A DNA stretch of 64,000 nt from contig JAURZI010000030.1 of assembly GCA_030653435.1 (NCBI GenBank), forward strand, positions 1 to 64,000, given 5' to 3'. Source of the DNA: Methylovulum sp. (GTDB lineage: Bacteria; Pseudomonadota; Gammaproteobacteria; Methylococcales; Methylomonadaceae). The stretch's first letter is position 1. Every line of letters begins with the position of its first letter. A model generated the notes under the pieces. The model worked only from the letters and a program-made list of their open reading frames with translations, was not told the DNA's origin and did no database searches. Positions 116-23,080 of this stretch are shown one piece after another. Both the position numbers and the translations under genes were made by a program.

Positions 116-2758
116 TCATAAGACCGACATACTCCTAGCAGGATAGCTTTCCTCAAGTGCATCCTCAAGCGTTAAGCCATCGTATAAGTCCTGATCACCT
201 TTTTCTAGTCTGATTTCATCGAACCCGGCTGTTTTGTCATCAGAAAAATCAATAGCATGATAATTGCCATCATGTGCGGCTGCAACGCTCAATTCATCCG
301 TAATTTTTTCTTTATCATCGTTTACGCCAAAGTCAAAATCGTACGAGTCAAGCCCATCTTTGGTTTCAGCAAGCAACGTTTCGGCTTTATCAGCTTCTTT
401 TGTAGCGGGTGTATCAACGGCAAATAAGCTTAAGTCAAAATCAAACGCTTCAAACTCATTATTCGTTTCAGTTACGGCGGCCGGTTTTTCAACCTTATCC
501 GCTCCAGTTGGGACGGGCGTATCAACGTCAAATAAGCTTAAGTCAAAATCAATACTTTCATTATTTTGTTCAGGTGCATTTTTGCTAACAATGGCTTCCG
601 GCTTATGCTCAACAGGCGTGATACCAATGTCGAACATATCATTTTTCTCACCAAACAATTCCTGGGCAGCACTACTGTCAAATAATTTCTCAAATGAAGC
701 CAAATCAAAATCCATATCCGACTCATCTGACACCGCCTCATCGGCAGATGCCGATGAGGCCTCACCACCATCAAGACCGGTGTTTTTCTTTAAGCGGCTA
801 TTGATACCCGAAGAAAATAATGGCGAGTCGGCGCAAATATCACTGCCCATTTCGGTGACTTTTGCCCAAAAATTAGGATCATCCTGCTTACCTGCATCAA
901 CTAATTCGCCGACGTATGTTTCAAAGCCCTGCTTATTGCCATTGGCATAAAAAATTTCGAGTAGTTTCAATTTGCATTCATCGCGTTCCGGCTGATCGGC
1001 AATCGCATCGCGCATCAGGTCTTCTGCCTGTTGGTAACGTCCATAGGCCAAATAAACATCGGCTTCGGAAATAGGGTCGATTTCCCCCTGATCCATATCA
1101 ATGACATCAAAATCACCGGCCGCAAAATCGCTGGCGAAAATATTGTCGCCTAGCGTCAAGTCAATACCGTAATTATTGTCGTCAGCGGAACTGGAAAAAA
1201 CATCGGCAGGCCTTGCTGTCTTGGCAAACCCTGCTGACGAAGACGGACTACCGGCATCATCCATCCCGCCAAGTTGGCGCTGCCGCCACCATAGCCATCC
1301 AAGTGCAACCAGCAAAGCGATACCTGCGCCGCCTACCCCCCAATAATACCCATCAAATGAATCCTCTTCTTCAATTTTTGTATTAATGGCTGGCCGGGCT
1401 GCGGGCTTGACAACAGGCTTGGGGGTAAGGGGTTTAGGCTGTAATTCAGCTTTAGGTTGAATGCCGGGAGCGGCCAACTCAGGTTTAGAGGCACCACCAC
1501 CAATCGGTGCAGCCGCCTCAGGCTTGTTTGCAACAATATCAATCGGAGCGGTTGCCCCAGGTTTGGCCGTCGCACCCTCAAGCGGTGCAGCTTGTCCTAC
1601 CGGCGTTGCCTGCGTTTGATTTTGCAACGCGGCAAGCTGTTGATCTTTTAAGGAAATCAATTCCCGCATCATTGCCAATTGCTTTTCCAATGCCGCTACT
1701 TTAGATTCTATCGTATTGTCTACAGCGGCGGAGCTACCGGCACTTTTTTGGCCAGCCCCTTGATCAGCTATCGGCAGCCCAGTTTCGGATGTCAGCGAAG
1801 CCGGGCTAGCTGCTTTCTTGTCGGCAGCAGCTTGCTGCCCATGACCCGATGTTAGACTAGCATGCTCGGAGACTGGCTCCTGTGCAGGCGCCTCCAACGT
1901 TAGTTGGTTATCTGCGTCAGCATGTTGCCCGGTATCTGCAACAGCAGCACGTGTTTCCGGCTTATTCCAGATCTGTATTTGTCGGTTAAACTCACTGACC
2001 GCTTGTTTGCGCGACCATTTTAAAATAACGTTTTTATCTGGAACCTTAAGCGTTTTACCGGCCAGCAAGGCATTAATATTTGCCTTATAAAAGGCGTGAG
2101 GATTTTCTTGATACAGCGCAATAAGCATTTGCTCAATAGAAACATCGGCATCCCTTAACTGCTCGGCGATTTTCCACAGCGTATCGTTTCTACTTGTAGG
2201 CCCGTATCCCCCAGCACCTGCACTAGCCCTTTCATCCGTAGCTAGCGGACGCCGTTTAGCATAAGGCTCCGATATAGTATCCTGCCTTGCCTCAAATTCG
2301 TCAGAACTGTTGGACATGGCGGGCATAGCGGCTTGTTTATAGACGTCAGGCGGATCGACCAATACCGTAAATCCGCGATATAAACTACCTTTAGGCCAAC
2401 TGACTTCAAGCAAGAACTCTAGCAGAGGCTCTTTAAGCGCCTCTTTTGAACTGATCTTTATAACCGCCGAACCGTTTGCTCCAGCCGGTTCGAATTTAAT
2501 TTTCGACAAAAAATACGTCCAGGGCACGCCATTTTCATCAAATTTATCAGGGGGGGCTAAATTTACTTTGATATCAGATAGTTTTTCGCCTGGAGACAAG
2601 ACTAGCGAAATCTCGGCATCGAGATTTTGATTAAGTGCAGAATGCAATTTAATCTCGCCTATCCCTAAAGGATAAGCGCTAGCAGGTATCAATAACGATA
2701 CGACCGCTAAAGTTTTAGTTAAATTGCGCACACTACTCTCCTTCAAAATAGTTACCAC
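116..2758 (-). CDS. fimV: FimV-type peptidoglycan-binding pilus/polarity hub protein
   Basis: An 880-residue inner-membrane protein of the FimV family, which organises type IV pili and polar signalling. It has a signal peptide (about 1-29), the FimV N-terminal domain (about 30-137) and a LysM-like peptidoglycan-binding segment (about 190-240, around NDTLWKIAEQ). A low-complexity Ala/Pro linker with a short coiled coil (about 345-380) leads to one membrane segment near 470-490 (GIALLVALGWLWW). The cytoplasmic part is very acidic, with a TPR-like stretch that includes QAEDLMRDAIADQPERDE. Two near-repeats carrying FDFDLSLF..VDTP follow, with a weaker third, and they are visible in the DNA as repeated AAGCTTAAGTCAAAATCAA. 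The usual C-terminal FimV domain is not apparent; the protein ends in an acidic tail. Position downstream of asd is the usual gammaproteobacterial order. Start is the ATG at 2758. Confidence 0.9.
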   Translation of the reverse strand: MVTILKESSVRNLTKTLAVVSLLIPASAYPLGIGEIKLHSALNQNLDAEISLVLSPGEKLSDIKVNLAPPDKFDENGVPWTYFLSKIKFEPAGANGSAVIKISSKEALKEPLLEFLLEVSWPKGSLYRGFTVLVDPPDVYKQAAMPAMSNSSDEFEARQDTISEPYAKRRPLATDERASAGAGGYGPTSRNDTLWKIAEQLRDADVSIEQMLIALYQENPHAFYKANINALLAGKTLKVPDKNVILKWSRKQAVSEFNRQIQIWNKPETRAAVADTGQHADADNQLTLEAPAQEPVSEHASLTSGHGQQAAADKKAASPASLTSETGLPIADQGAGQKSAGSSAAVDNTIESKVAALEKQLAMMRELISLKDQQLAALQNQTQATPVGQAAPLEGATAKPGATAPIDIVANKPEAAAPIGGGASKPELAAPGIQPKAELQPKPLTPKPVVKPAARPAINTKIEEEDSFDGYYWGVGGAGIALLVALGWLWWRQRQLGGMDDAGSPSSSAGFAKTARPADVFSSSADDNNYGIDLTLGDNIFASDFAAGDFDVIDMDQGEIDPISEADVYLAYGRYQQAEDLMRDAIADQPERDECKLKLLEIFYANGNKQGFETYVGELVDAGKQDDPNFWAKVTEMGSDICADSPLFSSGINSRLKKNTGLDGGEASSASADEAVSDESDMDFDLASFEKLFDSSAAQELFGEKNDMFDIGITPVEHKPEAIVSKNAPEQNNESIDFDLSLFDVDTPVPTGADKVEKPAAVTETNNEFEAFDFDLSLFAVDTPATKEADKAETLLAETKDGLDSYDFDFGVNDDKEKITDELSVAAAHDGNYHAIDFSDDKTAGFDEIRLEKGDQDLYDGLTLEDALEESYPARSMSVL

Positions 2759-2801
2759 AGTTTTTTACCGCGAATAGTCGAATAATAAAGCTAAGCTTAG
2801 A

Positions 2802-3824
2802 CTAGATGTGATTTTTTACCAGCACTTCTGCTATTTGCACACTGTTTAATGCCGCACCTTTACGCACATTATCACCTACGACCCATAAATTAATGCCCCG
2901 AGGATGGGATATATCCTCTCTGATGCGCCCAACAAAAACATCATCATGGCCTGATGAATCGGTCACCGCAGTTGGGTAACCACCATCCTTACGCTCATCA
3001 ACCACAGTGACTCCGGGCGCTTGCTCAAGCAAGGCCCTGACCGTAGCCGCATCAATTTTTTCACGGGTTTCAATATGCACCGCTTCTGAATGGCCATAAA
3101 AGACTGGAACCCGTACAGCTGTCGCATTGACCTTGACGGTAGGATCACCCAGAATCTTTTGGGTCTCCCAGACCATTTTCATTTCTTCTTTGGTATAACC
3201 ATTATCAAGAAAAACATCTATCTGGGGCAACACATTAAATGCAATTTGTTTGGGGTAAACGCTGGTTTTAATGGCCTGCATGTTAAGTAAGGCAGTCGTT
3301 TGGCGAACCAGTTCTTCTATCGCTTCTTTACCTGTTCCGGAAACGGCCTGATAAGTACAGACATTGATGCGTTCAATGCCAACAGCATCATAAATGGGTT
3401 TCAACGCAACCAGCATCTGGATCGTGGAACAATTGGGATTGGCAATAATGCCGCGATGCTTGTAATCGGCAATTTTTTCAGGGTTGACTTCCGGCACCAC
3501 CAAAGGAATATCATCATCATAGCGAAATTGTGAGGTGTTATCGATGACAACACAACCCGCTGCGGCGGCCTTGGGCGCATACTCCGCCGAAACAGCAGCG
3601 CCAGGGGAAAACAGACCGATCTGGACCTTAGTAAAATCGAATGTAGCCAAGTCCTGCACAGGTATCGACCGCCCTTTAAATGGGATCCTTTTGCCTACAG
3701 AATTACTGCTGGCCAACGCATAGACTTCACCGACAGGGAAATTGCGCTCTTCTAAAATCGACAACATGGCTTCACCGACTGCCCCGGTAGCACCCACAAC
3801 AGCAACATTATAAAGCTTGTCCAT
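2802..3824 (-). CDS. asd: Aspartate-semialdehyde dehydrogenase
   Basis: Catalyses NADPH-dependent reduction of aspartyl phosphate to aspartate semialdehyde, the branch to lysine/diaminopimelate, threonine and methionine. The 340-residue length fits the family. The N-terminal nucleotide-binding loop (VVGATGAVGEAM) and the catalytic cysteine motif (NPNCSTIQM) are intact. I chose the ATG at 3824 over an in-frame upstream start because AGAGGTGG lies just before it and it overlaps the leuB stop as TAATG, so the two genes are probably translationally coupled. It is the fourth gene of leuC-leuD-leuB-asd and is followed by fimV after a short gap. Confidence 0.95.
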   Translation of the reverse strand: MDKLYNVAVVGATGAVGEAMLSILEERNFPVGEVYALASSNSVGKRIPFKGRSIPVQDLATFDFTKVQIGLFSPGAAVSAEYAPKAAAAGCVVIDNTSQFRYDDDIPLVVPEVNPEKIADYKHRGIIANPNCSTIQMLVALKPIYDAVGIERINVCTYQAVSGTGKEAIEELVRQTTALLNMQAIKTSVYPKQIAFNVLPQIDVFLDNGYTKEEMKMVWETQKILGDPTVKVNATAVRVPVFYGHSEAVHIETREKIDAATVRALLEQAPGVTVVDERKDGGYPTAVTDSSGHDDVFVGRIREDISHPRGINLWVVGDNVRKGAALNSVQIAEVLVKNHI

Positions 3825-4927
3825 TACCCCACCTCTTTTGCAGCAGAAACCCATTTCAAACCAGAAACCACCGCATCACCCATTTGCGCCGTGCCCACTT
3901 TCTGCATGCCATCCGAATAAATATCCGCTGTGCGGATATTTGCATCCAAGGCATCATTGACCGCTTTTTCAATACGTTCAGCGGCATCGCTGCGATTAAA
4001 GGTATAACGCAACATCATCGCCGCCGATAAGATAGTTGCCAATGGATTGGCAATACCCTTACCTGCAATGTCGGGCGCAGAACCATGGATAGGTTCGTAC
4101 ATGCCTTTATTGTTCGCATCCAACGAGGCAGACGGCAGCATGCCGATAGAACCGGTCAACATCGCCGCCGTATCGGAAAGAATATCGCCAAACATATTAG
4201 TCGTGACAATCACATCAAACTGTTTAGGCGCCCGCACCAGCTGCATAGCTGCATTATCGACATACATGTGGCTGAGCTCGACATCCGGGTACTGCTTGCC
4301 GATTTCAGTCACGACTTGCCGCCATAACTCGGTACATTCCAGCACATTAGCCTTATCGACCGAGCACAGACGGCGGTTTCTTTTTTGTGCTATCTGAAAG
4401 GCACAATGGGCAATTCGACGTATTTCAGATTCGCTGTAGACCAGGGTGTTATAACCCTGTTTTTCACCATTTTCTAATAGCCTGACACCACGTGGTTGAC
4501 CAAAATAAATGCCACCGGTCAATTCGCGCACGATCATCATATCCAATCCGGAAACTATTTCAGGCTTTAACGAAGACGCATCAGCCAATTGCGGATATAA
4601 GATTGCCGGGCGCAAATTGGCAAATAACTGCAACTCGGAACGCAAACCTAACAGGCCTTTTTCAGGACGCACGGAAATATCCAGCGACTCCCATTTATAG
4701 CCGCCCACAGCGCCCAATAAAATGGCATCGGCATCTTTGGTCAACGCAAGGGTTTGCTGGGGAAAGGGCGTGCCATAGGCATCGTACGCGGCGCCACCGA
4801 TTAAGCCCGATTCAAAAACCAAATCCAGCGCCATGTCGGCATTCAAAAACTCCAGCACTTTAATCGCTTCTGCAACAATTTCAGTACCTATACCATCTCC
4901 TGGTAACACAGCAATTTTTATTGTCAT
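3824..4927 (-). CDS. leuB: 3-isopropylmalate dehydrogenase
   Basis: Oxidative decarboxylation of 3-isopropylmalate to 2-ketoisocaproate in leucine biosynthesis, using NAD. The 367-residue protein has the isocitrate/isopropylmalate dehydrogenase fold signatures: PGDGIGTEI at the N terminus, the substrate-binding [14 protein letters not shown] segment, the DNAAMQLVR and [10 protein letters not shown] metal/substrate motifs, and [18 protein letters not shown] for NAD binding. Length and motifs are complete. The stop codon overlaps the asd start by one base. A gap of 180 bases, unusual in this otherwise tight operon, separates it from leuD upstream. Confidence 0.97.
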
Positions 4928-16720: not shown

Positions 16721-18817
16721 ATGCTCGACAGTCAAAAAAGCCCTCACGGCAACACGCCTTCACAGTTTTCCGTACCTTATGTCCGCGACTTAACGCAATC
16801 AGTCAAACCTATCACGCTGGACACGCCAATTTTGGATGTTCTTGGTTTATTTCAGGCACACGCTGACTTATCGGCACTGCCGGTCATGGACGACAGCAAC
16901 AAATATTTCGGCCTCATTTCACGACGCAATTATCTCAACCTGATGACCCGGGCTTTTGCGCGCGAGCTTTATGCGCGGAAAAACCTAGACATCTTGCTGG
17001 TAAGCAATGCCGATATATTTGTTGCGCCGTTGATTGCCAATGCCGAAGACCGCATCGACCAAGTGATCGTTGATTTTTTAAGCCGAGATCCGGGCATCAA
17101 GTACGAAGCGCTGCCCGTCATCGGCAAAGACGGCATTATCGGCGTAGTCAAAGTCGCCGACATGATGTTGAAAATGTCACAATCGCAAGGCCACCTGATC
17201 GAAACCATGCAGCAACTGAGTACGCGGTTAAATGATGAGGTGGCTAACGCCGCAGCGCTGCAAAAAAACCTGCTACGCTCCCCTTATGTTGAATTGCCAG
17301 GCGTGCGTGGTTTATCGACCATGATCACATCCAGTGAAGTCGGGGGCGATTTTTACGATTACTACATGATAGACGGGCGCTGGGTGGTTATCTTAGTCGG
17401 CGATGTCAGCGGCCATGGCATTGCTGCCGGCACCATTGTCTGCGCCGCCAAGGCTGGTGTTAATTTTCTGGAGGCCGAGAAAGAAAAGGAACCCAACAAG
17501 ATACTTTCCCGCCTCAGCAACATCATCTTTAACACCGCCCACCAATCACTGCTGATGACTATGTTTGCGGTATGCCTGGACACCCGCACGGGCGAACTGC
17601 GTTATGCCAACGCCGGCCATCAATTCGCGTATATCTACCGATCCATGCTCAGCCAATTGGACAGCCTGGAACTGGGCGGCCTGCCTTTGGGCAAGAACGA
17701 ACATACCGACTACGAACAGCAAATGACTGAAATTGACTTGGGTGACCGTCTGTTTCTCTACACCGACAGCATTGTTGAAGAAGAAAATGCCGAGGGTGAA
17801 TGCTTTGGTTATGAACGCCTGGAAGAAGTGCTGGTTAATCATGGTGAAAGCGACATAGAAACACTGAACGGCAGTTTGCTGGATACGCTGACTGATTATC
17901 TGGGACGATCCGTATTCTATGACGATGTCACTATTTTCTGTGTTGAACATTTCGAAAAAACAACGGCGCTGGGCAATGCCTACAGCACTGCCGAACCCGA
18001 TTCAGACGTCATCGAAAAAGTGCACATCGCTGATGCTTTTTACCGCACAAATCCCAGATCCATTTCCCCACGTATCCAGCGCCAGGAATTGGTGTTCCTG
18101 GCAGAACAAAATTTTGCCGACCTTATACCGGGCTTGTCAGCCCAAGGTGTCAGGCGGATATTATTGCAGGATCATCCCATTAATCAGCAATTGGGCTGGG
18201 GAGTCTTACTCAACCAGCATCAGCATAACGGCACCGACGATTTGGCAGCATTTCTGCGTACTCCTGATCAACGCCGGGAATTTCATTTTACCCACAGTGA
18301 CGACAAGGCTTTCATCATAGGTGAAGTCGATGCGTGGTTGCAAGAACAATCCATAACCAACCCGGATCGCCTGGATGCCGTCATTTTTCTGTTAGACGAA
18401 TTAATTGAAAATGGGCTTTGCGGTGCACCACGCGACGGCAAAGGCCGGCCCCTTTACGCAAAAGGCACATCACGGGAACTGGCCGCAGACGAAATATTAC
18501 GCCTGGATGTCTCCATCCAGAACGGCTTGCTGGGCATTTCATTGATTGACAACTGGGGGACATTAACCCCCAACGTGTTCCTAAACCGCCTGTCACGCCA
18601 CATTCGAGGATTGGGCCTGGACTCCGGTGTCGGCGGCGGCGGGCTCTACCTGATTTGGCGTATGTCTGATTATTTGCAACTGCGTGTTTTCCCGAACCAA
18701 CAAACACAAGTCTGTGCGTTTATGGACCTTAATAACCATTTTGACCCAGAAGCGGATAAAGGCTTTCAATTCCTTTATCACAGCGAACTATACGAGGCTG
18801 TTAACCATGATAACTAA
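16721..18817 (+). CDS. CBS-pair / PP2C (SpoIIE-type) phosphatase / HATPase fusion protein
   Basis: A 698-residue cytoplasmic regulator. Residues about 20-155 form two CBS domains, which usually sense adenine nucleotides. A helical linker (155-190) follows. Residues about 195-410 form a PP2C/SpoIIE-type serine phosphatase with its metal-binding acids in GGDFYD (D210), GDVSGHG (D228), YTDS (D349) and YDDVT. A region resembling the RsbW/GHKL ATPase fold covers about 535-670, with the N box DELIENGL (N564) and a glycine-rich GLDSGVGGGGLYL. The same chain could therefore phosphorylate and dephosphorylate a STAS partner, as in Pseudomonas HsbR, but with CBS domains in place of a receiver. I chose ATG 16721; an upstream TTG at 16709 would add four residues. 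It overlaps the triple-STAS gene by 11 bases. Confidence 0.88.
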   Translation: MLDSQKSPHGNTPSQFSVPYVRDLTQSVKPITLDTPILDVLGLFQAHADLSALPVMDDSNKYFGLISRRNYLNLMTRAFARELYARKNLDILLVSNADIFVAPLIANAEDRIDQVIVDFLSRDPGIKYEALPVIGKDGIIGVVKVADMMLKMSQSQGHLIETMQQLSTRLNDEVANAAALQKNLLRSPYVELPGVRGLSTMITSSEVGGDFYDYYMIDGRWVVILVGDVSGHGIAAGTIVCAAKAGVNFLEAEKEKEPNKILSRLSNIIFNTAHQSLLMTMFAVCLDTRTGELRYANAGHQFAYIYRSMLSQLDSLELGGLPLGKNEHTDYEQQMTEIDLGDRLFLYTDSIVEEENAEGECFGYERLEEVLVNHGESDIETLNGSLLDTLTDYLGRSVFYDDVTIFCVEHFEKTTALGNAYSTAEPDSDVIEKVHIADAFYRTNPRSISPRIQRQELVFLAEQNFADLIPGLSAQGVRRILLQDHPINQQLGWGVLLNQHQHNGTDDLAAFLRTPDQRREFHFTHSDDKAFIIGEVDAWLQEQSITNPDRLDAVIFLLDELIENGLCGAPRDGKGRPLYAKGTSRELAADEILRLDVSIQNGLLGISLIDNWGTLTPNVFLNRLSRHIRGLGLDSGVGGGGLYLIWRMSDYLQLRVFPNQQTQVCAFMDLNNHFDPEADKGFQFLYHSELYEAVNHDN

Positions 18818-20840
18818 TGCAAAGTTACGAATTCAGCAACAACCTAGCTCAGAAAGCCTCGCCCAGACCTTCGCGCTGATTGGCGCTGTAGATATTGATG
18901 CCTCGGCGGTTTTGGAGAAACTTTACGTAGTGCCTGCACAAGCAAGCGCAGAACTCAATTTTGCCCAGGTCGATTCGGTCAATTCCATGGGCTTGGCACA
19001 ATTGCTGAAACTGTTTGAGCATTGGAAAAAACGGGACATCAGCATACGCATCACCTCCGCCAATCAAATGGTGTGCTTGTTGCTCAACCAAACAGGTTTA
19101 GCCCATTTTCTCGCCGACGGACATGCCCATTCCAGTGCAGCGACAAAACTTGAAATATCAGGAGCCCTCCAAGTGACCGACCCAACAGAGACCGCCGCTG
19201 TAGCCATATTGCAAATCCAACCCTCCCCCTCTAACGAGCAAGCAATCCAGCAATTTACACTGGTAGGCAGCATTGATGTCCATGCCGTGCAACTGTTGCA
19301 GCCGCTTTATGTACTACCCCAAAACTGCCGCGTCGAATTAAATTTCGCCCAAGTGGAACGGGTCAATTCTATGGGTTTGGCACAATTGCTGAAACTGTTT
19401 GAGCATTGGCAGAAACAAAACATCATTATCAGCGTCATTAACGTTAATCGCATGATTACCGTATTATTTAAAATGACCGGGTTAACCCGGTTTCTGTCTG
19501 CGGCACCCGTGTCTGATGCCAAAACCTCAGCACTTGAGCCACAAAAAGCCGTTGCGCGCGCAGAACCGGCACGGACAGCGCAATCTCCGGCGCCTTCGCC
19601 CGCTTTGTTCGCAACAACTACCCTGCAAATCCAACCGCAACCCTCGGCAGAAGCATTGGTGCAACAATTCGAGATGATCGGCATTATAGATGTCGAAGCC
19701 GTGCAATTGCTGGAAACACTTTATATACTCCCGCAACATTGCACCGTGGAATTAAATTTTGCCCAAGTGCAGCGCGTTAATTCGATGGGGCTCGCGCAAC
19801 TGCTGAAATTGTTTGAGCACTGGCAAAAACAGCACATCAGCATCAACATCACTAACACTAACCGCATGATAGGCGTACTGTTCAAGATGACAGGCCTGAC
19901 GCGTTTCTTATCTGAAACCTCGGCAGCCGGGCTCCCATCCCCACAAACCAGACAATCACTGCCTACTACGCCACCCGCAACAGCCCCGCAAGCGCTTCAG
20001 CTAACACAGCCGATAACACCGGCAAATAACGGCACTGAAACGCCAGAGCGCCGTTCCAGCGCTGCCGTGGCTGTCAGTACCGAAAAACTCGAACTCTGGG
20101 TAAGCGCACAAAGCAGCCAACAAATGAACGGTTGGTACTTCTTCAATACCTATTTGCAACGCCATTTGGGCCGCGAAGTCCATTTGGAACTGGCGCATGG
20201 GGCCATGAGCGAACGGCGTAAGCCCATAGAAGATATGGACATCGTTTTCACCAAACCGTTTGAGGCCACCCATTTGATGTTAAAACATCATTTCCAACCG
20301 CTGCTGCGTCCGATAGACCAGTCTGACGAAGTCACTTTACTCGTGCGGGCCGACGACCCACGGCTAAGCTTGGCGGAATTTCAAGGCGGCAAAGTGGTAA
20401 CTGCGGCACAAGACAACTTTGTTTATTTGCTAGGCCGATTCCTGCTGGAAGAAAACGAAACAGCTTTGGCTGACATGGAATACCTGTTTTCCGGCCATGA
20501 TATTAAAGCCTTGCAAATGCTGCTTAAAGGCTCTGCCGATATACTTTTCATGTTAAGCGACACTTATCATGGCCTATCCGGGTTGACGCGAAAAAATTTG
20601 CGGGAAATGGACCAAAGCGAAACCGCTTTCGCCTTCCATTTATTGAGTGTCGCCCCGCATTGCGCCGAATTGGGTGATACATTATCGAATGTCTTGCTGG
20701 ATATGAGCCTGGACAGCCAAGGCAGGCAGGTTCTGGCAGACTTGGGCATACCGGGCTGGATCAAGCCGACCCATGACGAGTGTGATATGCTGGCGATGTT
20801 GTATAACCGTTATAGCGTCAGCGACACTGCATCCAAGTAG
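18807..20840 (+). CDS. Triple-STAS protein with C-terminal PhnD-like ligand-binding domain
   Basis: A 677-residue protein without signal peptide. Three STAS (anti-anti-sigma type) domains lie at about 5-104, 134-232 and 272-370. Each carries VNSMGLAQLLKLFEHW; the Ser matching the phospho-acceptor of SpoIIAA Ser58 is kept in all three (S60, S188, S326), while the preceding Asp has become Asn. Ala/Pro/Gln-rich linkers separate them. Residues about 426-660 resemble the PhnD/phosphonate-type periplasmic binding fold (FQGGKVVTAAQDNF, LKGSADILFML) but would sit in the cytoplasm. I chose ATG 18807, which overlaps the phosphatase-kinase gene by 11 bases, so the two are coupled. Probable role: multi-site substrate of the upstream kinase/phosphatase with a small-molecule input. 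The PhnD assignment is by eye. Confidence 0.82.
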   Translation: MITNAKLRIQQQPSSESLAQTFALIGAVDIDASAVLEKLYVVPAQASAELNFAQVDSVNSMGLAQLLKLFEHWKKRDISIRITSANQMVCLLLNQTGLAHFLADGHAHSSAATKLEISGALQVTDPTETAAVAILQIQPSPSNEQAIQQFTLVGSIDVHAVQLLQPLYVLPQNCRVELNFAQVERVNSMGLAQLLKLFEHWQKQNIIISVINVNRMITVLFKMTGLTRFLSAAPVSDAKTSALEPQKAVARAEPARTAQSPAPSPALFATTTLQIQPQPSAEALVQQFEMIGIIDVEAVQLLETLYILPQHCTVELNFAQVQRVNSMGLAQLLKLFEHWQKQHISINITNTNRMIGVLFKMTGLTRFLSETSAAGLPSPQTRQSLPTTPPATAPQALQLTQPITPANNGTETPERRSSAAVAVSTEKLELWVSAQSSQQMNGWYFFNTYLQRHLGREVHLELAHGAMSERRKPIEDMDIVFTKPFEATHLMLKHHFQPLLRPIDQSDEVTLLVRADDPRLSLAEFQGGKVVTAAQDNFVYLLGRFLLEENETALADMEYLFSGHDIKALQMLLKGSADILFMLSDTYHGLSGLTRKNLREMDQSETAFAFHLLSVAPHCAELGDTLSNVLLDMSLDSQGRQVLADLGIPGWIKPTHDECDMLAMLYNRYSVSDTASK

Positions 20841-20871: not shown

Positions 20872-22929
20872 TTAATGTAAAGGGTTAAGCGCGGGATTCC
20901 GCCGGAAAAAACCGTAAGGCGTGAGCCGAAAAACCTGTAGGCTCTCGGTGTTCATCACTGGATATTGTTCGACATCCGGGATGTGCGTCAAGCCTGCCGA
21001 TACCCATAACACCACATCCTGGTCCTGCAAGTTTTCATCCCCCGAATAAGCCGGCAAACCTTGACCCGCCGAGCCTTGATTCGGGTATGTGCCGGTTGCG
21101 TATAACTCGTCGGCGTGATACCGGGTAACCCACAACGGGTGCTCAACAAAACCGGCACGTTGACGCGCTGCGAAATGGTCACTGGAATAAGGCGTGGCGG
21201 TATCGCCCAGCGTTAATGTGTAACCCGTAGGCGTCCCCAAGTCATGCTTGCCGTTGCTGCTGAGAATTTTCCAGGTACGCGCCCGACTAAGGTCGATATC
21301 GCGGCGTGCCCCAGCTTCTGTCGCCAGCAAAGAATCCTCGCTGGCAAAAGCATTACCCCATGCACTGGTTTGCGCTTGGACATTGCTTTCATAAACGCGG
21401 TTAGCCAAACCGTCAATATCCAGATCCGCACGGAAATTGAAAAAATGTTGGTGATTCGGTGCGGCGACAATGGCTGCACCACCACCGGCTGCGGACGCCT
21501 TATCAACAACCCGTCCGTGAACAGAGCCCTCTGTAATACTGTTGACACCTTGGTTGAGGGTCGTTCCGGTAGCGTCTACACGCACATCAAGCGTACCATT
21601 CAATTGGAAAATATAGTGGATGCCATAAATGTAATTGCCTATCCAAGAGTTTGACGTGATGACCAATTCCCGTGCCTCCCGCCTATCCTGCGCGCTTGAG
21701 TCGGGATCGACGCGTTTCCACAACAAGCCGGAGTTGCGCTCATAAAGCCCGACTGCATTGGGATAAACGATAGAACTGCCGCTGTCGTCAGCGATGCGGG
21801 CATTAAAAAACAACGCATTATTCGGTACATCGATATTAGCCGCAAGCGGGTTAACAAAACGCCCCATACCATATTCACCGACATCAAACGCAGTCCGCCA
21901 CACCCAGTTGACGTCAGGCAAACCATAAGGCACATAAATCTCAGTCAAGCCCAAGCGGTAAGCGATGGGACGCACAACGCCATTTTCTTCATAGCTTATG
22001 GTATAAAGCACCAAGCCGTCACGGGGGTGCAGTGCATAACGGAAACGCCAACCTTGCCAACGGACTTCCTGTCCGCACAACTGATAACCGGAACCCTCAG
22101 GCTGAACTATCTGCAAGGGTTTAAGCCCTTGCCGACTATGGCTTTCAGGCTCGCCAGCATAGCCGGAAACGGCGGCGACCACCGTATCAGTCACTTGCAG
22201 AATTTTAAGGCGGTTCATATCAACCGCAACCACCACACCCTCGATAGGCCGATCATAGGGATTAGGCTGGTTATCTCCGCGCAAAAAGGACAACACCCGC
22301 ATAATACGGGTTCCGGGCGCAACAGTATTGCCGTCACGATCCACGGCAACAGGCAAATCGCCACCCGCCCAGACATCCAGATAAACCTGATCTGGGTTAA
22401 TCCCGCGTTTGTGCATCGCGGCGCGCCAATCGCGATCCTGCGTGACCACCGGCAAAACAGCCGTATATTCGTCTATGAATGTCGGCGGTTGCGTGCCCTG
22501 AGGCAGTTTGTTGAACGCCGTTACTTTCTGCTGCCGTAAATCAACGATAGCTTGGTACAAGGTGTTTTTAGGACGGTCGTAAACATCCACCAACGCCTCG
22601 CGGCGGAAATTATCGCCAAACTGAAAGGCCAGGACTTCCTGTTTCGGCGGTTCATTAAGCACCACGGTAGGAAAGAAGGCTTGGGCAGGTGCACCGTTGG
22701 CTTTAACCAGGGTAACCGCCAGCTCTATTTCCGCTTTTGTCAACGGATCCAATGGATGGACGCAAGCGCCGGTGCCACTGGCGGCAGGCAACGCCCGGTC
22801 TGTAAGCGCCTTGATTGCCGACGTGCGCGGGGACGCGGCAAGCTCGGAAGCGGCGGCATGTGCCGTTAAACTGAACAAGCAAGCAAGTAAAATGGCGTGA
22901 TTCATAGTTAGCCAAGCCGATAAGGTCAT
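20872..22929 (-). CDS. Copper-containing primary amine oxidase
   Basis: A 685-residue exported enzyme of the copper/topaquinone amine oxidase family, which oxidises primary amines to aldehyde, ammonia and hydrogen peroxide. It has a signal peptide ending near LTAHAAA. The catalytic base lies in FDVGEYGMG (D349), the cofactor tyrosine in IGNYIYG (Y433), the copper ligands in NHQHFF (H493, H495), and a third His in LTHIPDVEQYPVM (H649). The residue after the cofactor Tyr is Ile where Asp or Glu is usual, so cofactor formation deserves checking. The small N-terminal domain of the E. coli enzyme is absent. Start codon uncertain: ATG 22929 or ATG 22905. Convergent with the STAS gene. Confidence 0.88.
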   Translation of the reverse strand: MTLSAWLTMNHAILLACLFSLTAHAAASELAASPRTSAIKALTDRALPAASGTGACVHPLDPLTKAEIELAVTLVKANGAPAQAFFPTVVLNEPPKQEVLAFQFGDNFRREALVDVYDRPKNTLYQAIVDLRQQKVTAFNKLPQGTQPPTFIDEYTAVLPVVTQDRDWRAAMHKRGINPDQVYLDVWAGGDLPVAVDRDGNTVAPGTRIMRVLSFLRGDNQPNPYDRPIEGVVVAVDMNRLKILQVTDTVVAAVSGYAGEPESHSRQGLKPLQIVQPEGSGYQLCGQEVRWQGWRFRYALHPRDGLVLYTISYEENGVVRPIAYRLGLTEIYVPYGLPDVNWVWRTAFDVGEYGMGRFVNPLAANIDVPNNALFFNARIADDSGSSIVYPNAVGLYERNSGLLWKRVDPDSSAQDRREARELVITSNSWIGNYIYGIHYIFQLNGTLDVRVDATGTTLNQGVNSITEGSVHGRVVDKASAAGGGAAIVAAPNHQHFFNFRADLDIDGLANRVYESNVQAQTSAWGNAFASEDSLLATEAGARRDIDLSRARTWKILSSNGKHDLGTPTGYTLTLGDTATPYSSDHFAARQRAGFVEHPLWVTRYHADELYATGTYPNQGSAGQGLPAYSGDENLQDQDVVLWVSAGLTHIPDVEQYPVMNTESLQVFRLTPYGFFRRNPALNPLH

Positions 22930-23080
22930 CAAGAAGGTAGGTCATGATGCCGTTAGCCTTTTCTCAAGTCAAGCAAGCGTATGGCGATCAGTTCACCTGC
23001 GTAATAAGACCTGTGATAGTATTTTTTGGAAATTCCATAACCACCGTTTAATAAGGACGGGCTGCAACAGCGCCGACACC

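Follow-up and report, generated by a model that had tools for sequence, protein, structure and literature searches.

A conserved kinase/phosphatase and STAS-PhnD gene pair in Methylococcales as a possible input to Roadblock/Ras-like GTPase signalling

Partner switches are known to control sigma factors, biofilm and c-di-GMP (PMC6482189, PMC10120452). Rv1364c of Mycobacterium tuberculosis joins PAS, phosphatase, kinase and STAS domains in a single chain and has neither a STAS array nor a PhnD-like domain. HsbR of Pseudomonas combines its kinase domain with a receiver and a phosphatase domain. According to PMC6482189, this kinase domain transfers phosphate to a conserved serine of a STAS-type anti-sigma antagonist, and HsbR-HsbA and CrsR-CrsA of Shewanella alike pair a multidomain kinase with a STAS partner that carries a conserved serine. 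SypE of Vibrio fischeri is a serine kinase/phosphatase whose STAS partner, SypA, is the downstream component (PMC10120452); SypA is a single STAS domain without a PhnD-like domain. The gene pair described here comes from a methane-oxidising bacterium, lies in the window, the whole stretch of 64,000 nucleotides that was analysed, and resembles SypE-SypA in combining a putative kinase/phosphatase with a STAS partner. It differs from HsbR-HsbA and CrsR-CrsA in that its presumed input is CBS or membrane/PAS where HsbR and CrsR have a receiver, and in that its putative substrate consists of one to three STAS domains fused to a PhnD-like domain, with an apparent tie to a Roadblock/GTPase operon. The literature searched contained no system with a CBS-phosphatase-kinase protein and a multi-STAS-PhnD partner, in agreement with the sequence-only reading, which knew of none.

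The first gene, ORF1 (16721..18817, forward strand, ATG at 16721), encodes 698 aa with the layout CBS-SpoIIE(PP2C)-GHKL-like ATPase by Pfam and a structure model, and is a candidate bifunctional kinase/phosphatase. A CBS pair at residues ~21-150 (16781..17170), presumably the sensory input, was matched by PF00571 in two stretches (E 9.9e-11) and appeared in the model; sensing of adenine nucleotides is plausible from the family. The SpoIIE/PP2C phosphatase (residues 222-410 by Pfam, 17384..17950; E 1.2e-35) was also recovered by fold search, and PF07228 was present in all 42 aligned rows of the family, in which D210, D228, D349, D401 and D402, which we take to be the metal-site residues, were invariant. 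At residues ~517-669 (18269..18727), the C-terminal part is a candidate GHKL-like ATPase, presumably the kinase, to judge from matches in relatives, the element order of the predicted fold and invariant boxes. Pfam gave no ATPase match in ORF1 at E ≤ 10 and a PDB search with the segment itself returned nothing; HATPase_c_2 (PF13581) matched 13 of 21 C-terminal segments of relatives at E ≤ 0.01 (best 1.7e-7). Invariant in the 42 rows were D559, E560, E563 and N564 (N-box DELIEN), D610, W612 and G613 (G1 DNWG), and G636, G638, G639 and G641 (G2 GVGGGG). The canonical G1 box is DxGxG, and the D-x-W-G of ORF1 is atypical for a kinase. Foldseek returned 3ke6 (RsbU-RsbW of Rv1364c) as the first match, with 507 alignment columns across phosphatase and ATPase domains and an overall rmsd of 16 A. 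Together these results bear out the earlier proposal that CBS domains, a SpoIIE-type phosphatase and an RsbW-like ATPase are joined in one chain, the last through relatives, fold and invariant residues. Structure models of ORF1 and ORF2 had mean pLDDT of 81.5 and 83.7 and pTM of 0.50 and 0.46, so that the folds of single domains can be used but not their arrangement.

The second gene, ORF2 (18807..20840, forward strand, ATG at 18807; 677 aa), overlaps ORF1, as the sequence-only reading had it, here by 11 nt, and encodes STAS-STAS-STAS-PhnD-like by Pfam, serine positions and the structure model. Three STAS stretches were matched (PF13466, E 3.2e-22; PF01740, E 8.2e-21), namely STAS 1 (18813..19121), STAS 2 (19197..19502) and STAS 3 (19611..19916), and the predicted acceptor serines lie exactly at the positions first proposed for them, S60 (codon 18984-18986), S188 (19368-19370) and S326 (19782-19784). 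The domain composition of ORF1 and ORF2 is far beyond chance. In a profile alignment the STAS serine coincided with that of an anti-sigma-B factor antagonist; it was kept in 126 of 126 non-redundant STAS repeats and was one of 5 invariant columns among 102 occupied. STAS number varied from one to three across 137 STAS-PhnD proteins, of which 42 were left out as duplicates (identical last 220 residues), and a single STAS was present in 73 of the 95 unique proteins. A few of these numbers are lower bounds, as truncated proteins at contig ends entered with the STAS domains that they still show, and very divergent repeats could escape the profile, which derives from the three repeats in the window.

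The C-terminal part of ORF2 (20082..20837) is a PhnD-like domain, supported by Pfam (PF12974 Phosphonate-bd, residues 431-657, E 6.6e-28, 98.1 bits against a cut-off of 27), by the model and by Foldseek, whose best matches, ArrX, XAC2383, PtxB, AioX and PhnD, had probability 1.00 and include several structures solved with anions. No signal peptide was seen by hydropathy, because no 19-residue window exceeded 1.6 on the Kyte-Doolittle scale and STAS begins at about residue 3; the claim of a PhnD-like binding fold without a signal peptide therefore stands. The domain shares its fold and PF12974 with PhnD, AioX, ArrX and PtxB and differs from them in being cytosolic by sequence and fused to STAS. 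The domain alone matched no PDB chain by phmmer at E ≤ 10, and within a set of 25 sequences it matched neither E. coli PhnD nor three other PF12974 proteins of its own genome. In the same set it matched seven PhnD proteins of a Roadblock operon (E 9.7e-41 to 8e-29), and a profile of the latter also weakly touched one other PF12974 protein, L225 (E 4.7e-5). The nearest relatives found are thus cytosolic proteins of a Roadblock/Ras-like-GTPase/PAS operon; a tree of the domains was poorly resolved and supports no claim of descent.

This kinship bears on the original interpretation of the module as an integrator, in which adenine nucleotides are sensed through CBS, a small anion of the cytosol through the PhnD-like domain, and phosphates are counted on three serines. 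The CBS pair and the binding-protein fold are real, the fold matches include anion-bound structures, and class A has a histidine at the place of the His in the E. coli PhnD GHETNAL segment. However, Asn stands there in most class B rows and the E. coli 'STSG' stretch is not kept in the PhnD-like domain, although the profile alignment with E. coli PhnD is weak (probability 0.2 percent), so that pocket arguments are weak. Relatives in the Roadblock operon and the prevalence of single-STAS proteins also argue against it, and we consider the integrator quite unlikely and the small-anion sensor unsupported. Genes for a cognate permease or ATPase were absent from the annotated recurrent direct neighbours of the pair, and one ABC exporter-type cluster was present in the DNA flanking 5 of 59 loci.

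Conservation of the pair was assessed in 201 genomes of Methylococcales, a single sample of the order. The STAS-PhnD gene adjoined the kinase gene in 56 of 58 kinase loci (kinase E ≤ 1e-40, weaker homologues being outside the count), the exceptions being L090, with a STAS gene lacking PhnD, and L124, at a contig end. A second scan, driven by STAS-PhnD, showed the kinase, or the end of it, immediately upstream in 78 of 80 named loci, and the remaining two matches begin <240 bases from a contig start. A second, paralogous kinase class carries membrane/PAS input, often PilJ, in place of CBS. These surveys uphold the proposed two-gene partner-switching module and show that the pair is conserved, and sequence comparison supports a pair made of a kinase/phosphatase and its likely STAS substrate.

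The neighbour survey also sought a sigma or anti-sigma gene accompanying the pair, and none occurred among the annotated recurrent neighbours (65 of 111 direct neighbours were singletons and left unannotated), a survey that an unlinked sigma target would escape. This bears on a conventional switch like HsbR/HsbA or CrsR/CrsA, in which the ATPase domain would sequester RpoS, the STAS protein would release it and the PhnD-like domain would merely tune the exchange. In its favour, HsbR is the reported anti-sigma factor for RpoS, with phosphorylation of HsbA at Ser56 as the switch (PMC6482189), and RpoS above the family cut-off was commoner in module genomes (36/41 vs 115/160, p = 0.04, ancestry ignored). 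RpoS over the cut-off was nevertheless absent from 5 of the 41, including assemblies of 8 contigs (G029) and 5 contigs (G026); the co-occurrence was weak, and an RpoS output leaves the fused PhnD domain and its Roadblock-operon tie unexplained; we regard it as unlikely. Control of a diguanylate cyclase or other c-di-GMP enzyme by the STAS array, as in SiaABCD or HsbA-HsbD, is very unlikely: profile and fold searches placed SiaA and RssB among the nearest kin of the phosphatase domain and in L083 a PAS-GGDEF protein is encoded two genes away from the pair, but this GGDEF neighbour did not recur as a direct neighbour and the STAS domains had no meaningful Pfam match to SiaC (E 0.71). Direct neighbours found in at least 3 of 59 loci were lpxD (10), a PLP-enzyme gene (5) and, in 3 each, genes for TgpA/transglutaminase, a class I (E and Q) tRNA synthetase and a 165-aa protein without Pfam match. 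They resemble inherited neighbourhoods, and a conserved extra gene beside the pair was rejected. Among the recurrent neighbours, the one with a role in signalling was the Roadblock operon.

That operon encodes a Ras-like GTPase, Roadblock and PAS, as well as a cytosolic PhnD and three products that match no Pfam family. Ras-like GTPase and Roadblock are likewise combined in MglA/MglB and the actinobacterial conservons, to which the operon here adds the PAS, PhnD and unmatched proteins; no mention of a partner switch with either was found in the literature searched. Roadblock and PAS stood beside the stand-alone operon PhnD in 20 of 20 Methylococcales loci fetched, and in other genomes Roadblock did so in 3/3 and PAS in 2/3. 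Roadblock was present in 38 of 41 module genomes compared with 54 of 160 others of the order (shared ancestry ignored), by a strict count of 96 genomes at E ≤ 1e-25 minus four (G052, G081, G087, G176; E about 1e-27, all without the module), whose inclusion gives 58/160. Outside the order it was found in 7 of 7 module genomes titled as other groups, compared with 3 of 377 in a phylum sample (shared ancestry ignored); the seven were chosen by record title, two are MAGs with possibly wrong labels, and L155 (titled Methyloversatilis) and L163 (titled Gammaproteobacteria) were left out.

Physical linkage to Roadblock-operon genes occurred in 5 of 58 loci from three genera: once inside the operon, between X215 and Roadblock (L109), twice directly upstream of DUF245-DUF401-GTPase (L113, L114) and twice directly downstream of a Roadblock gene, the only such gene near (L093, L095). 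The window's own pair is unlinked. In two same-genus genomes without Roadblock the PhnD domain was strongly diverged: the PhnD distance to outgroups was 0.81-0.82 vs 0.40 ± 0.04, that of SpoIIE was 0.45 vs 0.39, and 12 of 40 conserved PhnD residues were altered in both, compared with none of 30 in any of 13 controls (95 percent rule over 40 and 39 rows, respectively). ATPase (z 7), STAS (z 3-4) and CBS (z 2.5-2.8) were sped up too, and the two genomes are close sisters, representing one event. In the third Roadblock-less module genome (G097, a 510-contig assembly) the STAS gene lacks PhnD. The kinship, the co-occurrence, the linkage and the matched divergence point to a possible functional tie, and we consider it evenly balanced whether the pair is a self-contained partner switch serving as input to the Roadblock/Ras-like GTPase system. 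The operon does not need the module, since the former occurs without the latter in those 54 genomes and a stand-alone PhnD of ~250 aa is kept in at least 33 of 41 module genomes. The idea of STAS-PhnD as an invariable substitute for the stand-alone protein was rejected: of eight genomes compared, four had both (G598, G600, G601, G602) and four had STAS-PhnD-type matches only (G001, G002, G603, G604).

In such an input, the N-terminal sensor of ORF1 (CBS, or membrane/PAS in the paralogous class) would set the balance between phosphatase and ATPase/kinase, activities suggested by their families. The kinase would phosphorylate, and the phosphatase dephosphorylate, the conserved NSMG serine of each STAS bead; the phospho-state may alter STAS partner choice, freeing or retaining the cytosolic PhnD-like domain, which could then act on the Roadblock/GTPase system; the operon of that system usually has a stand-alone PhnD of its own. 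Additional beads would probably give a graded or steeper response. More tentatively, with chances a little short of even, partner switching may directly control a bacterial small GTPase, the STAS array carrying, under phospho-control, a PhnD-like domain that takes the place of the operon's own or competes with it. GTPase output, perhaps cell polarity or pili, would then be set by energy state (through CBS) or by a membrane/redox-type signal (through PilJ-PAS), and bead number would tune the threshold.

A pairing of a partner switch with a small-GTPase system was not found in the papers searched and, if true, would join two signalling worlds. On a single scaffold the candidate phospho-sites number one, two or three, a natural series in which the effect of multi-site STAS phosphorylation is directly testable. 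The kinship of the domain also suggests that some annotations as 'PhnD/SsuA/transferrin family substrate-binding protein', for example a Sphaerotilus record, are mislabelled signalling proteins. Among the STAS-PhnD proteins, a single unexplained stretch of >90 aa was observed, in L075, where PhnD is cut by the contig end.

Both genes of the module lie on the forward strand of a 4.66 Mb genome in 161 contigs and overlap by 11 nt (ORF1, 16721-18817; ORF2, 18807-20840). Of the domain content proposed in the sequence-only reading, Pfam search found CBS and SpoIIE domains in ORF1 and three STAS domains plus one Phosphonate-bd (PhnD-like) domain in ORF2. The proposed acceptor serines of ORF2 (S60, S188 and S326) are likewise present, each within an identical NSMG motif that aligned, by profile, with the DSTG of an anti-sigma-B factor antagonist, while the predicted structure of ORF2 has the form of beads on a string, with three STAS-like units, one binding-protein fold and low-confidence linkers (residues 105-130, 235-269 and 372-423). 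Assignment of the ORF1 phosphatase is sound: SpoIIE was found by Pfam in 42/42 rows and its aspartates were invariant across 42 aligned rows. The ATPase domain is the weakest domain call of the module: it was not found by Pfam in ORF1 of the window, and HATPase_c_2 was matched in 13/21 homologous segments and 14/42 longer segments. N-box and G-box-like residues were invariant across 42 rows, the C-terminal part would, by our reading of the predicted fold, arrange its helices and strands in the sequence typical of GHKL ATPases, and the first Foldseek match of ORF1 was the RsbU-RsbW unit of Rv1364c. The module is predicted from sequence to be a phosphorylation switch, and its substrate architecture departs from that of any partner switch known to us. 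The literature search returned no paper combining PhnD with 'STAS domain' (most subscription papers being outside its scope), and the four matches to 'two STAS domains' concerned sulfate or anion transporters, judged by title.

Kinase homologues (E ≤ 1e-40) were found at 58 places in 41 of 201 genomes of Methylococcales, the window's genome among them. Inspection of all 58 neighbourhoods showed a STAS-PhnD gene adjoining the kinase in 56, including one locus cut at a contig end (L075); at the other two, the contig stops directly after the kinase (L124) or an 88-aa STAS gene without PhnD stands next to it (L090). A second scan, driven by STAS-PhnD over named genomes, retained 80 of 86 confirmed loci, with a kinase or kinase end directly upstream in 78 of the 80 and the remaining two matches starting <240 bases from the contig start. 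The pair, whose adjacency was noted in the sequence-only reading, is real and conserved. It also occurs in records titled outside Methylococcales (Sphaerotilus, Leptothrix, Leucothrix, Acidithiobacillus and MAGs labelled Burkholderiales or Proteobacteria). Among 398 genomes sampled from the phylum, the kinase (E ≤ 1e-60) and the STAS-PhnD fusion (E ≤ 1e-20) were each found in the window's own genome only, three others having matches to the PhnD part alone. At L090 (461-5428), the divergent CBS-SpoIIE-ATPase gene and STAS-only gene are followed by two genes, one for a protein of 364 aa and unknown family, the other for a protein of 410 aa with an MCP signal domain; the Roadblock gene (see below) is absent from this genome.

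Pairs fell into two classes. Class A kinases have CBS input and partners with 1-3 STAS units; class B, with membrane/PAS input, had PAS in 3/3 scanned members, PilJ above cut-off in 2/3, two hydrophobic stretches in the single member examined by hydropathy, and a partner with one STAS unit. The window's genome carries one pair of each class (class B at L069). Pairwise distances of kinases and partners were correlated (r = 0.96, 87 non-redundant loci, shared ancestry included), and the class split was exact in the kinase tree, with one locus misplaced in the partner tree. One class B pair resides on Sphaerotilus plasmid pSna507_unt10 (L070:3179-7260), its STAS-PhnD protein annotated as a PhnD/SsuA/transferrin family substrate-binding protein. 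After removal of duplicates, 73 of 95 proteins had one STAS unit, 13 had two and 9 had three. The putative acceptor serine was present in 126/126 units (NSMG 122, NSLG 2, NSIG 1, NSMV 1) and was among the five invariant columns of 102 occupied. In a repeat tree based on few columns, both repeats of three family-f4 loci fell outside a supported clade (99/93) of all repeats from the window's genus in the tree, and STAS doubling therefore occurred at least twice. Repeated doubling and serine retention favour the extra STAS sites being functional, though they are no proof of counting.

The PhnD-like domain has close kin in the window's genome: a PhnD-like protein of 248 aa that lacks a signal peptide. 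Its operon also codes for a Ras-like GTPase, a Roadblock protein, a PAS protein and three proteins that match no Pfam family. Within a 25-sequence set, the window's PhnD domain matched seven Roadblock-operon PhnD proteins (E 9.7e-41 to 8e-29) and neither E. coli PhnD nor three other own-genome PF12974 proteins; the reverse profile, from Roadblock-operon PhnD, matched one of those three (E 4.7e-5). Among the matches listed, genes for Roadblock, the Pfam-less protein X215, GTPase and PAS adjoin a ~250-aa PhnD in 20/20 Methylococcales places, and outside the order Roadblock adjoins PhnD in 3/3 genomes, with a PAS match in 2/3. The window genome's operon (contig C136, L231:1296-6106) comprises two uncharacterised genes, Ras-like GTPase, X215, Roadblock/LC7, PAS and the PhnD-like gene; proteins of 1296-3231 and 3786-4433 matched no Pfam family. 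Roughly half of the Methylococcales in the sample carry such an operon, as do a few genomes besides.

We found the Roadblock gene (E < 1e-50) in 38/41 module genomes vs. 54/160 others of the order (Fisher p = 2e-12, ancestry ignored). Asked as a prediction, it was present in 7/7 module genomes titled outside the order (E < 1e-46), and in 3/377 other genomes of the phylum sample (E ≤ 1e-35). These seven are five named isolates (two Sphaerotilus, Leptothrix, Leucothrix and Acidithiobacillus) and two with near-identical MAG loci whose labels are possibly wrong, about four lineages in total. The dependence is one-way, the operon being frequent without the module. Roadblock-operon genes lay inside the fetched flanks of 5/58 pair loci from three genera. 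The pair stands between X215 and Roadblock, on a single strand throughout (L109), directly upstream of the DUF245-DUF401-GTPase genes (L113, L114), or immediately after a Roadblock gene on its downstream side, where the other operon genes are absent nearby (L093, L095). A rough chance estimate for this linkage was 4e-4 for five loci and 0.02 for three; four linked loci recur under public names (L191, L180, L198, L175), and single weaker PAS matches at L083 and L147 were left out of the count. This tie to the Roadblock/GTPase operon is the best-supported novelty of the module and was beyond the reach of a sequence-only view. A second Roadblock gene of the window's genome (contig C143, L269:6681-7040) shares 96 percent identity with the copy in the operon, and the other operon genes are not nearby; similar solitary copies (L270, L271) are each preceded by a related 187-aa gene.

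The Roadblock gene was not found in three module genomes. One (G097) is the genome whose STAS gene is without the PhnD part; the others (G072 and G171, probably the genomes of loci L151 and L150, which likewise gave no Roadblock match when searched) are members of the window's genus, each with a class A pair that has three STAS units. Their PhnD distance to outgroups was 0.81-0.82, twofold that of 14 others of the genus (0.40 ± 0.04), and 12/40 conserved PhnD residues were changed in both, vs. 0/30 in each of 13 controls. Their divergence extends beyond PhnD, barely to phosphatase (0.45 vs. 0.39) and further to ATPase (0.64-0.65 vs. 0.47), CBS (0.72-0.73 vs. 0.60) and STAS (0.60-0.65 vs. 0.42), and is one event, since the two are sisters. 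Four genomes (G001, G002, G603, G604; two 87 and 91 percent complete, two MAGs) have PhnD-like matches that are all STAS fusions despite a Roadblock gene, as if the fusion might stand in for the stand-alone PhnD.

An accompanying sigma or anti-sigma gene, sought following the sequence-only reading, did not appear among annotated recurrent neighbours of the pair (most singletons lay outside the annotation). RpoS was over cut-off in 36/41 module genomes vs. 115/160 others, so an HsbR/CrsR-like role is possible but cannot be general. In Leucothrix, two genes encoding polar landmark proteins of the FimV/HubP type come after the GTPase, X215 and Roadblock genes (L266:1111-7885), and Roadblock overlaps the first of them; TIGR03504 was above and TIGR03505 below cut-off in both proteins. 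Together with PilJ in class B, this single case is no more than a lead, pointing to polarity or to type IV pili as a possible output. Elsewhere, a PAS-GGDEF protein is encoded two genes from the pair at L083. The window's genome has a second SpoIIE protein (L230:6054-7364, 436 aa) whose CBS match is weak and under the cut-off and in which an ATPase domain was not found, and two more clusters (L227:224-10307, L228:4486-10938) where STAS and SpoIIE proteins occur alongside substrate-binding ones (PhnD-type, ABC_sub_bind; SBP_bac_3 with permease and ABC ATPase). Downstream of the pair, the convergent gene at 20872-22932 encodes a copper amine oxidase (PF01179, E 5.9e-111).
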